A DNA stretch of 64,000 bases from Gammaproteobacteria bacterium (GTDB taxonomy: Bacteria > Pseudomonadota > Gammaproteobacteria > JASBUN01): NCBI GenBank assembly GCA_030147845.1, contig JASBUN010000064.1, positions 38,501 through 102,500 on the forward strand, read 5' to 3'. A model generated the notes under the pieces. That model was given only the letters and a program-made list of their open reading frames with translations, was not told the origin of the DNA and searched no databases. Below are positions 21,763 through 26,146 of this stretch, piece by piece. A program made the translations under genes and the position numbers. How positions within the stretch are numbered: position 1 is the first letter of the stretch; the number at the start of each line of letters is the position of its first letter.

Positions 21763-22230
21763 ATGTCGGCGGTTCGGAGCCTGGATATGCATACTCATAG
21801 TGAGCGAGCTTCGTCCACCCTATGGCGGGCTGATCAAAGTGGTTTCCAGGCGGCCAAAGTCCGGCTGCGGCAGGCCGATGAGCGCAATGATGACGCTGCA
21901 TCAGATGCCAATGGCGTACTCTATTGCGCACAATGCCGCGCGCCCATCAGCCATGACTCGGAGCGGGTGTCCCGCCGCGGTTCGCACCAGCACCGCTGCC
22001 GCAATCCCAACGACTTGGTGTTCGACATCGGCTGTTTCGCGGATGCCCGCGGTTGTGTGTATGGCGGCCCGTCGGCCGACGCTTGGACTTGGTTTCCGGG
22101 TTATTATTGGCAAGTGAGCTGGTGTAGAGCCTGCGGCGCCCATCTCGGCTGGCGCTACCGTGGCGCCGGTGACGTATTCTATGGTTTGATTCTCGATCGC
22201 CTGGTGAGCGGCCGCGGCGGCGCCGATTAG
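21763..22230 (+). CDS. Stand-alone CULT (cereblon thalidomide-binding fold) domain protein
   Basis: YCAQCRAPISHDSERV...HQHRCRNPNDLVFDIGCF...GGPSADAWTWFPGYYWQVSWCRACGAHLGWRYRG...FYGLILDRL. Two CxxC zinc pairs, and W-x5-W-x13-W at codons 22090, 22108 and 22150. Alternative start at 21787. Confidence 0.88.
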   Translation: MSAVRSLDMHTHSERASSTLWRADQSGFQAAKVRLRQADERNDDAASDANGVLYCAQCRAPISHDSERVSRRGSHQHRCRNPNDLVFDIGCFADARGCVYGGPSADAWTWFPGYYWQVSWCRACGAHLGWRYRGAGDVFYGLILDRLVSGRGGAD

Positions 22231-22338: not shown

Positions 22339-23469
22339 ATGATTCGTTCCGCCAATCTTCGCGATCTCGAAGCGCTCGTCGCTACCGAGAACCGGTGCTT
22401 TGAAACCGACCGCTTGTCGCGCCGAAGTTTCCGTTACATGTTGACCAAGGCCAATGCTGTCACGCTCGTCGATGACGCCGACGGTGTGCTGCGCGGTTAT
22501 GTTCTGGTGCTCTATCACGCCGGCACGTCGCTGGCGCGACTATATTCGATTGCAGTGGATCGCGGTCACCGTGGCTGCGGCGTTGGTGAGCAACTCGTGG
22601 GTGCTGCCGAACAGGCGGCGCTGGACGCTGACTGCGTCAACATGCGATTGGAAATACGTCGAGACAACCGGGCGTCGCTGCACCTGTTCGAAAAACTGGG
22701 TTACCGCAAATTCGGTATGTATCCGGATTACTATGAGGATCATATGGAAGCGGTGCGCCTGGAGAAGGAGCTTGCGCCGCACTTGCGACCGGAACTCGTC
22801 AGCGTCCCCTATTATGAGCAGACACTTGATTTTACCTGCGGTCCGGCGGTGCTGATGATGGCCATGCATAGCTTGGATGATGCGCTGGCGTTAGACCGCC
22901 GGTTGGAAATCCGCATTTGGCGGGAATCCACTACAGTATTCATGACGGCCGGGCACGGAGGTTGCGGTCCCTATGGTTTGGCGCTGTCGGCATATCGTCG
23001 CGGGTTTGACGTCAGTGTCTATGTCAATGATGAAGCGGCGCTGTTTGTCGATTCCGTACGTAGCGCCGAGAAAAAGGAAGTCATCCGCTTGGTGCAGGAA
23101 GATTTCCTCGAGGAAATTGCCCAGCTGCCGATCCCGGTGCATTACCGCAGTTTGAGCCTCGCTGAGATGCGCACCGAATTTGATCGTGGCGGTATTCCCG
23201 TCGTATTGATCAGTTCTTACCGAATTTATAAGGAAAAATTTCCGCACTGGGTGGTGATAACCGGTTTCGACCATCGGTTCATTTACGCCCATGATCCATA
23301 CGTCGATCATGAAAAAGGCAAGAGCGTGACCGACGTACTTAATATGCCTATTTTGCAGAAAGATTTTGAACGCATGGCGCGCTATGGAAAATCCGGGCAA
23401 CGTGCGGTTCTTATAATTAGTAAATCGAAGGTGACTCGCCGACGACGGCCGGCAGCCCGAAAAACCTGA
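22339..23469 (+). CDS. GNAT acetyltransferase fused to C39-like (papain-fold) peptidase
   Basis: N-terminal RimI-like GNAT (LARLYSIAVDRGHRGCGVGEQLV) and a C-terminal C39-like region with candidate catalytic Cys (LDFTCGPAVLMMAM), His (PHWVVITGFD) and Asp (YAHDPYVD). Confidence 0.87.
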   Translation: MIRSANLRDLEALVATENRCFETDRLSRRSFRYMLTKANAVTLVDDADGVLRGYVLVLYHAGTSLARLYSIAVDRGHRGCGVGEQLVGAAEQAALDADCVNMRLEIRRDNRASLHLFEKLGYRKFGMYPDYYEDHMEAVRLEKELAPHLRPELVSVPYYEQTLDFTCGPAVLMMAMHSLDDALALDRRLEIRIWRESTTVFMTAGHGGCGPYGLALSAYRRGFDVSVYVNDEAALFVDSVRSAEKKEVIRLVQEDFLEEIAQLPIPVHYRSLSLAEMRTEFDRGGIPVVLISSYRIYKEKFPHWVVITGFDHRFIYAHDPYVDHEKGKSVTDVLNMPILQKDFERMARYGKSGQRAVLIISKSKVTRRRRPAARKT

Positions 23470-23478
23470 GAGGAAAAC

Positions 23479-24957
23479 ATGGCGACACAGCTGATTGTCG
23501 TTGAAGACATCGACGACTGGACGTATGAGGGTATCGACTGCCCCGTGGTGCATGCCGATGACTATCTTACCGGACAAGAGTATTTCAAGTTGCGTGACGT
23601 GCAAGTCATCAACTTGTGTCGGAGCTATAAATATCTGAGTGTGGCCTATTACGTTTCGCTGTTGGCCGAGGCGCGTCGCCACAAGGTGATTCCATCGGTC
23701 AAAACCATGCTCGACCTGAGCAGTAAGGCGATGTACAGCCTCGATGCGGTCAATCTCGATGATTTGGTGCAGAAGAAGCTGAAAAAGCAGAATAGCGATC
23801 CGTTTCAAAATGTATTCGAGATGGATGTGTATTTTGGTAATTGCCCGTACGGCGTGTTGGCGGATCTGGCCCGGCAGTTGTTCGAGCATTTCCCGTTTCC
23901 GTTGTTGCGGGTAGGGTTCCGGCGACAAGGAAGTTGGCATATTTCCTCGATCAAGGCGTTGCCGATAACCAAAATCGAAGCGTCTGGTCGAGAGCTGTTT
24001 GCAACGTCTTTTAGCGGTTACCTGAAGCGCCGCTGGCGTTTGCCTAAGACGAAGACGCCGGCGCGCTACGACCTTGCGATTCTTTATAATTCCGCCGATC
24101 CATTGCCGCCGTCGGATAAGCGCGCGCTGCAAAATTTCATCAAGGCCGGCGCCGCCCAAGGTGTCGCTGTCGAGATTGTTGGGCGTAAAGATTACGCGCG
24201 CTTGGCGGAATACGATGCGTTGTTTATCCGCGACACGACGCGCATTAATCATTACACCTATCGTTTTGCCAAAAAAGCGGAAAGTGAAGGTATGGTCGTA
24301 ATCGATGACCCACAGTCGATCCTACGTTGCACCAATAAAGTTTATTTGGCCGAGTTATTGCGCGCCAATCGCGTGCCAACTCCTAAGACGGTGATCGCGG
24401 GGAAGGGTGATCTGAGCGCGGCGGAGAAGGCCATTGGTTTCCCGATGGTGGTGAAGGTGCCGGATGGCTCGTTTTCACAAGGTGTGTACAAAGCCGAAAA
24501 TCCACAGCAGATGCAGGAATACGCTGCACGTTTGTTCAAAAATTCGGAACTCATTTTGGCGCAGGAGTTTCTATATACCGCGTTCGATTGGCGCATCGGC
24601 ATTCTTAATCGCAAACCGGTATTTTCCAGCCAATATTTCATGTCCAAGCAAGATTGGAAGATCGTGAATTATGACGCGTCAGGCAAGGCGATCGAAGGCG
24701 GTTTTAAGACGTGGCCGATAGAACAGGCCCCACAACAAGTCGTCGACGTGGCGCTGCGAGCGGCAAATTTGATCGGCGATGGATTGTACGGTGTCGACGT
24801 GAAACAAAATGACGACGGCATTTACGTTATCGAAGTGAACGATAACCCGAATCTGGACGCGGGTGTGGAGGATGCGGTGCTCAAGGATGAGTTGTATCGA
24901 ATTATCATTGCGGAATTTGTGCGCCGTATCGAATTACGTAAAAGCGCAGAGCGCTAA
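23479..24957 (+). CDS. RimK-like ATP-grasp ligase with RLAN-type N-terminal domain
   Basis: N-terminal VVHADDYLTGQEYFKLRDVQVINLCRSYKYLSVAYYVSLLAEARRHKVIPSV (RLAN-like), then ATP-grasp motifs MVVKVPDGSFSQGVYK and YGVDVKQNDDGIYVIEVNDNPNLD. Ten-bp gap to the preceding gene. Confidence 0.88.
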   Translation: MATQLIVVEDIDDWTYEGIDCPVVHADDYLTGQEYFKLRDVQVINLCRSYKYLSVAYYVSLLAEARRHKVIPSVKTMLDLSSKAMYSLDAVNLDDLVQKKLKKQNSDPFQNVFEMDVYFGNCPYGVLADLARQLFEHFPFPLLRVGFRRQGSWHISSIKALPITKIEASGRELFATSFSGYLKRRWRLPKTKTPARYDLAILYNSADPLPPSDKRALQNFIKAGAAQGVAVEIVGRKDYARLAEYDALFIRDTTRINHYTYRFAKKAESEGMVVIDDPQSILRCTNKVYLAELLRANRVPTPKTVIAGKGDLSAAEKAIGFPMVVKVPDGSFSQGVYKAENPQQMQEYAARLFKNSELILAQEFLYTAFDWRIGILNRKPVFSSQYFMSKQDWKIVNYDASGKAIEGGFKTWPIEQAPQQVVDVALRAANLIGDGLYGVDVKQNDDGIYVIEVNDNPNLDAGVEDAVLKDELYRIIIAEFVRRIELRKSAER

Positions 24958-25195
24958 GTACGTTGCGTCGCTTTGGAAGTGTAACAATGCCTGCTTGATG
25001 CTTTGCTGACAACGCCCGCGTTTGAAAGTTCCCGGCGTTATGTTGCGATACGGTCATGTCAGCGATGTGCATGTTTTTACGGCCAGGAGGGAACCTTCGT
25101 ATCTTATTCATGGTCTCTAAGCAGTAACGGAATTGAAATATCCGAAGATCCGTTTTATATTTCCCAGCAAGTTAAACAACCGAGGAGAACAGACC

Positions 25196-25561
25196 ATGAA
25201 TAAACTCGCCATCGTAATCGTCAGTGTTGCCGCGTTGGGCGCCAGTGTTGCCTCTGCCGCGCAGTGGACTCAAGCCGATACCAATCAACTGGCGTTTCCT
25301 GACGAGTACATCGGTTCGCCTGAGTTAACGGTCAACTCGTCGACGCCTAATGCGGAGTTCGCGAAATTCGATACAGTGCCGACGACGAAATTTGAGCAGC
25401 AGCTCATGTATCCGGACGAGTATGAAGGTTCCCCCGTGCTGCAGCGCAGTCACGCGGAAAAGACTGCTGAGTTCGCTCCATTTTCGGTGACACCGACAAC
25501 CGAGTTCGAGCAGCAGCTCGCGCACCCGGACGAGACGCCATACAAGCCTAATCAGTATTGA
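25196..25561 (+). CDS. Small exported protein with three degenerate PDEY-containing repeats
   Basis: Signal peptide MNKLAIVIVSVAALGASVASAA, RBS aggaga, and repeats NQLAFPDEYIGSPEL / EQQLMYPDEYEGSPVL / EQQLAHPDETPYKP separated by EFAxFxxxPTT linkers. Confidence 0.75.
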   Translation: MNKLAIVIVSVAALGASVASAAQWTQADTNQLAFPDEYIGSPELTVNSSTPNAEFAKFDTVPTTKFEQQLMYPDEYEGSPVLQRSHAEKTAEFAPFSVTPTTEFEQQLAHPDETPYKPNQY

Positions 25562-25618: not shown

Positions 25619-26146
25619 TCAGCGCGTTGCCGCTGCTGTGGCTCGGGCCGCGTCCCCGGGTTGGACGCTACGCGCGATCGGTGTGTTGCAGTTGCTGAGC
25701 TTGAGAGTAGGCGGGTCGACTGAAAAGATAAACGGCGAAGTTTTGCGTAACGCGCTCAGTCCCAGGATGCAACGACCATTGCCGGGCAGCACCGCCACTT
25801 GTACGTTGGGGATGCTACAACGCTCACCGACGATGACTTCCTCGATTTCATATACCGGTACCTCGATGGTGCTGCCATCGGCCATGGCGCCGGTTACGTA
25901 TTTGAGAAAATGCGCTCGTTTGGCGCGCTTGAGCGCGGCCAGTATGGTTTCATTGATGAGTGTATAGCTGGCGCCCGTATCGACCATGAATTGCATATTG
26001 TGGCTGCCGGGGATGTGCACCTGCACGTAGTATGTTTCCAATCCTTGGTTGCGCATGTGAACCGTTTCGTCGGCCGCGATCGCGACCCCGGATGACAATA
26101 TAATTACTATCATAATCAATCGGCTAGAATATCTGCGTAGGTCCAT
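25619..26146 (-). CDS. Exported retropepsin-like (clan AA) aspartic protease
   Basis: Signal peptide, then MQFMVDTGASYTLINETI (DTGAS active site) and CILGLSALRK (second retropepsin motif). Confidence 0.83.
   Translation of the reverse strand: MDLRRYSSRLIMIVIILSSGVAIAADETVHMRNQGLETYYVQVHIPGSHNMQFMVDTGASYTLINETILAALKRAKRAHFLKYVTGAMADGSTIEVPVYEIEEVIVGERCSIPNVQVAVLPGNGRCILGLSALRKTSPFIFSVDPPTLKLSNCNTPIARSVQPGDAARATAAATR

Follow-up and report, generated by a model that had tools for sequence, protein, structure and literature searches.

The CULT gene and its surroundings

The window, by which we mean the whole stretch of 64,000 nucleotides that was analyzed, carries on its forward strand a short open reading frame whose predicted product resembles the CULT domain, the thalidomide-binding part of cereblon (Table 1). 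On reading the sequence between positions 21763 and 22230 we found it to agree with an earlier description of this frame, and the peptide quoted in the earlier note, WFPGYYWQVSWCRACGAHLGW, was found in the translated frame. Two in-frame ATG codons, at 21763 and 21787, could serve as the start. Because GGAG is placed seven bases 5' of ATG 21787 and the codon at 21763 has no ribosome-binding site, ATG 21787 is the more likely start of the gene. The frame stays open further 5', from 21286, in a region antisense to argE, and this upstream part is unlikely to be coding. The gene is present in one copy in the source genome.

The gene argE adjoins the CULT gene upstream in divergent orientation. Downstream, on the same strand, lie a gene for a protein with a GNAT and a DUF3335 (C39-like) domain (PF11814, E 5.5e-88), which we call GNAT-C39 and which starts about 108 bases 3' of the CULT gene, and a gene for a protein with RLAN and RimK-type ATP-grasp domains (PF14401, E 9.7e-48).

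Table 1. Coordinates of the CULT gene and of the domain, zinc-site and pocket features of its predicted product
Feature	Position	Strand	Basis
CULT protein CDS, 147 aa, stop included	21787..22230	+	GGAG 7 bases before ATG 21787
N-terminal extension, residues 1-43, predicted disordered	21787..21915	+	AF2 pLDDT about 47-68
Core of the CULT domain (residues 44-141); a putative zinc site connects its two beta-sheets	21916..22209	+	AF2 pLDDT >90; Foldseek
First zinc CxxC, CAQC, C47/C50	21925..21936	+	Invariant in 58 CULT sequences
Asn-Pro hairpin tip, NPND (N73-P74, D76)	22003..22014	+	Literature on pocket; alignment
A99, equivalent to human Glu377 and MsCI4 Glu76 (avadomide contact)	22081..22083	+	Glu in 48/58 aligned sequences
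W100, equivalent to human His378 and MsCI4 Phe77 (contacts the glutarimide NH via its backbone)	22084..22086	+	Alignment
W102, equivalent to human W380, cage wall 1	22090..22092	+	Alignment
W108, equivalent to human W386, cage wall 2	22108..22110	+	Alignment
Second zinc CxxC, CRAC, C113/C116	22123..22134	+	Invariant in 58 CULT sequences
W122, equivalent to human W400, cage wall 3	22150..22152	+	Alignment
Y124, equivalent to MsCI4 Y101 (human F402), cage base	22156..22158	+	Alignment; in MsCI4, extra imide-carbonyl hydrogen bond

Sequence and predicted fold place the product among CULT proteins

We compared the predicted protein with all PDB sequences using phmmer. The best match was MsCI4 of Magnetospirillum gryphiswaldense (E 8e-21, about 37% identity), followed by vertebrate cereblon, including the human protein (E about 1e-8). 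When a profile was built from 58 CULT sequences, it matched MsCI4 at 4e-36 and cereblon at 3e-21, and yippee-like 5 at only 0.009. These E values for MsCI4 and cereblon put the resemblance to CULT far beyond chance. Searches of Pfam gave only sub-threshold matches, the best being Yippee-Mis18 (PF03226) with 19.1 bits against a gathering cut-off of 26.6, and no NCBIfam match was found; thus, routine annotation would probably call the protein hypothetical.

An AlphaFold2 model was then compared with known structures, as the earlier note had proposed. The core (residues 44-141) was modeled with a pLDDT above 90 and the N terminus with low confidence, and the beta-tent fold was present in the predicted structure. 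Foldseek searches with this model returned complexes of MsCI4 as the top matches, thalidomide-bound ones among them (rmsd 1.1-1.2 A, TM about 0.92 by target length), and human cereblon after these (rmsd 1.3-1.6 A), so that the model shows the CULT fold. The protein consists of the CULT domain alone, 147 aa in all, of which the 43 N-terminal residues are predicted to be disordered; the LON domain and the DDB1-binding region are absent, and no Pfam LON match was found. No signal peptide was obvious by eye in the N-terminal extension, in which the stretch SGFQAAKVRLRQ is similar to SEQFEAAKLKQTR of the L042 group of relatives. The protein is most likely cytosolic.

CULT is related to the yippee, Mis18, MsrB and GFA-like families, all of which have the beta-tent fold (PMC4287342), and this kinship, together with the fact that the sole Pfam match nearby is the sub-threshold Yippee-Mis18 one, could be taken to mean that the protein belongs to one of these families instead of being a true CULT protein. 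We regard this as extremely improbable: the profile gave 4e-36 for MsCI4 against 0.009 for yippee, and the three-Trp cage, the Asn-Pro hairpin tip and the full domain length are features of CULT. Though the protein has the beta-tent fold in common with Yippee/Mis18 (PF03226), its match to that family is far weaker than that to CULT. Yippee/Mis18 proteins are not known to possess the Trp cage. Taken together, the sequence comparisons and the model strongly support the reading of the product as a small, stand-alone bacterial CULT-domain protein of the MsCI4 kind, and the assignment made in the earlier note is borne out by phmmer and profile scores, fold and pocket residues alike.

The predicted zinc site is complete and the pocket differs at its rim

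The earlier note had pointed to two CxxC pairs and to three tryptophans spaced as in human cereblon. On reading the sequence we found both pairs, with the cysteine codons of CAQC at 21925 and 21934 and those of CRAC at 22123 and 22132, and the tryptophan codons at 22090, 22108 and 22150 do have the spacing +6 and +14 of human W380, W386 and W400. Other tryptophan codons in the gene are at 21823, 22084 and 22120, of which the one at 22084 falls at the position of human His378. The alignment showed that the Trp cage, its base tyrosine, the Asn-Pro tip and all four cysteines are retained. The changes in the pocket are at three rim positions, namely Asp76 for Gly, which turns the hairpin NPxG into NPND with the Asn-Pro kept, Ala99 for Glu and Trp100 for His or Phe. 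Among the 58 aligned sequences, the window protein included, the glycine of the hairpin is Asp in 3 and a residue other than Gly in 6.

MsCI4 (cereblon isoform 4, MGR_0879, PDB 4V2Y) is likewise a small stand-alone bacterial CULT protein, and the two proteins have in common the cage of three tryptophans and a tyrosine, the zinc CxxC pairs and the Asn-Pro hairpin tip. They differ in NPND versus NPAG at the tip, in Ala for Glu76 and Trp for Phe77, and in the disordered N terminus, which is different and longer in the window protein. The likeness to the CULT domain of human cereblon lies in the fold and in the +6 and +14 spacing of the cage; unlike the human protein, the window protein is without a LON domain, DDB1 or a ubiquitin system and has Tyr for Phe402 at the base of the cage.

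Cyclic imides as probable ligands

MsCI4 encloses the glutarimide ring between Trp79, Trp85 and Trp99; the hydroxyl of Tyr101 and the backbones of Phe77 and Trp79 form hydrogen bonds with it (PMC8900816). The pocket of MsCI4 accommodates thalidomide and also deoxyuridine. Because every residue of MsCI4 that holds glutarimide is either kept in the window protein or changed only where the backbone alone takes part, we infer on good grounds that the protein would bind cyclic imides. The range of ligands or their affinity may differ from those of MsCI4, given the rim changes to NPND, Ala and Trp, and the altered rim positions could tune the choice of ligand.

We also considered that the cage serves another class of ligand, a quaternary or tertiary ammonium group or a modified lysine; such ligands were at one time suggested for cereblon. 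Binding of these cations by aromatic cages is common, a DMSO-bound alternative cage is possible in MsCI4 (PMC4449219), and the rim of the window protein differs at three positions. However, the cation-binding studies on cereblon were inconclusive and the groups that hydrogen-bond an imide, the tyrosine included, are retained, and we consider a cation-type ligand unlikely.

For the preferred cyclic-imide ligand, the protein would work as follows. One zinc ion on the two CxxC pairs would pin the two beta-sheets, and the cage of three tryptophans and a tyrosine would hold a flat cyclic imide, that is, a glutarimide, aspartimide or uracil-type ring, by means of the tyrosine and two hydrogen bonds from the backbone. 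In the cell, the protein most likely works as a module that binds such rings; the cyclized Asn- or Gln-derived C termini of damaged proteins and uracil-like metabolites are possible examples. The gene is a single, free-standing unit without a tie to those adjoining it. As a whole, this explanation, a cytosolic CULT protein of the MsCI4 kind that is pinned by zinc, binds imide or uracil-type rings and is unlinked to its neighbors, is very probably correct.

That C-terminal cyclic imides are the natural ligand is a tentative guess, which we hold to be possible and somewhat doubtful. According to work cited in PMC13001092, cereblon binds C-terminal cyclic imides in eukaryotic cells and human PIMT is able to make such imides (aspartimides). 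A PIMT-family gene is present in the source genome; because PIMT is near-universal (91 of the 94 genomes compared), its co-occurrence with CULT is uninformative. None of the papers found establishes which ligand bacterial CULT proteins bind naturally, and no bacterial partner such as a ligase or protease is recognisably tied to CULT. To our knowledge, bacteria are without a cereblon-type ubiquitin ligase.

The adjoining genes do not point to a role

It had been suggested in the earlier note that the adjoining genes could be a clue to the natural role of the protein. The CULT protein might be a working part of an operon with the GNAT-C39 and RLAN ATP-grasp genes and, for example, read a cyclic imide or amide that is made or removed there. 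The genes are on the same strand with a gap of about 108 bases, a simple scan found no terminator in this gap, and the combination of an amide-forming ligase, a peptidase and an imide reader would be suggestive chemistry. The gap contains a GC-rich hairpin that folds only mildly better than shuffled sequences, and the stretch between argE and the CULT gene gave no sigma-70 promoter in a simple scan.

The comparison with other genomes, however, went against the suggestion. No GNAT-C39 gene and no ArgE was found in the 87 other CULT loci that were fetched, many of which are short or truncated, and the single RLAN match among them (L036, 23% identity) looks like a generic ATP-grasp protein, leaving none with a close RLAN homologue. 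Two related genomes (G067 and G078) keep the order argE, GNAT-C39, RLAN without a CULT gene, the gap between argE and GNAT-C39 being about 80 and 43 bases, respectively; from this arrangement, the CULT gene was either inserted in the source lineage or lost from the lineages of G067 and G078. In another genome (G014), CULT and the GNAT-C39/RLAN system are both present, about 266 kb apart. Among the 94 genomes, 7 have CULT and 23 have RLAN, and the overlap of 2 is close to the 1.7 expected (Fisher p 0.55). A functional tie between CULT and GNAT-C39/RLAN is thus not supported, and we judge membership of such an operon to be very unlikely. It is highly improbable, too, that the CULT gene was recruited beside an amide-forming ATP-grasp/GNAT-peptidase operon and reads an imide on the peptide of that operon, with the altered rim (NPND, Ala, Trp) reflecting the ligand; if true, this would be the first natural role assigned to any bacterial CULT protein.

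Some features of these neighbors may be recorded in their own right. The GNAT + DUF3335 and RLAN + RimK ATP-grasp pair (22339-24957, + strand) is recurrent in the class; it lies next to argE in two or more related genomes, and elsewhere the two genes of the pair are divergent or apart. Downstream of the RLAN gene, 25133-25561 (+) encodes a small protein that appears to have a signal sequence and contains a PDEYxGSP-type repeat three times, the last copy reading PDETPY. This protein matched nothing in Pfam or NCBIfam, nor did tblastn detect it in relatives at their RLAN loci, and it is possibly the substrate of the GNAT-C39/RLAN system. Facing it, 25619-26146 (-) encodes a retropepsin-like aspartic protease (PF13975).

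CULT genes in other genomes

The neighbors of about 86 CULT loci were clustered. No universal partner emerged among these loci, and the groupings were confined to single lineages. In a Muproteobacteria/Acidiferrobacterales group, a gene for a FIST-domain protein, a putative small-ligand sensor, lies 11-45 bases upstream of CULT (L002, L011, L015, L053 and L071). At three loci in genomes of the Desulfobacterota type, an alpha/beta hydrolase gene lies on the same strand 2-10 bases 5' of CULT (L025:6955-7842, L058:1525-2421 and L085:7147-7920), suggesting that the two form an operon. A TauE permease gene is near CULT at four loci (L003, L050, L057 and L070), and the neighbors in Desulfobacterales include ClC channel, RmuC-like and EF-G genes. 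Since about 87 loci have no neighbor in common beyond single lineages, gene context is unlikely to reveal the role of CULT; the genes that recur beside CULT inside a lineage (FIST sensor, alpha/beta hydrolase, TauE permease) are better leads than the operon in the window.

A pattern scan of GTDB species genomes with [TS]WFxGYxW[QRT][IV] found 248 bacterial relatives, and the 80 best of these were retrieved. The stretch WFxGYxW belongs to this pattern and its invariance among the fetched relatives is therefore built in; W400, N351-P352 and the CxxC pairs lie outside the pattern. The best 80 of the 248 are mainly from Desulfobacterota and Gammaproteobacteria, with Myxococcota, Acidobacteriota and Rhodospirillaceae also present by record title. 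The scan also turned up two cultured carriers of CULT, Desulfocicer vacuolatum DSM 3385 and Desulfofustis glycolicus DSM 9705. Of the 94 genomes compared, the majority of which share the class of the source genome, 7 carry CULT. At the sensitivity used, viral contigs and plasmids contained no relative, and there is thus no sign of carriage by mobile elements. In a tree of 86 CULT sequences, the window protein was on a long branch with its placement left unresolved.

Lupas et al. 2015 (PMC4287342) described group I of the bacterial CULT proteins, those made of the domain only, from a spirochete and from alpha-, gamma- and delta-proteobacteria. The window protein is no different in kind from this group, which our scan extends with members titled Acidobacteriota and Bradymonadaceae. 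Its identity adds one member to an already published, broad family: the fold that thalidomide targets occurs in bacteria, and the protein is an ordinary addition.

Among the relatives, the apparently long CULT frames of L016, L029 and L005 resemble open upstream or antisense frames more than they do clear fusions. At L007/L008 (G084:C135:3442-3773), the CULT gene appears to be broken by a change of frame in the cage region, where two overlapping partial matches are in different frames with one stop; the gene could be a pseudogene, or the assembly could be in error there.
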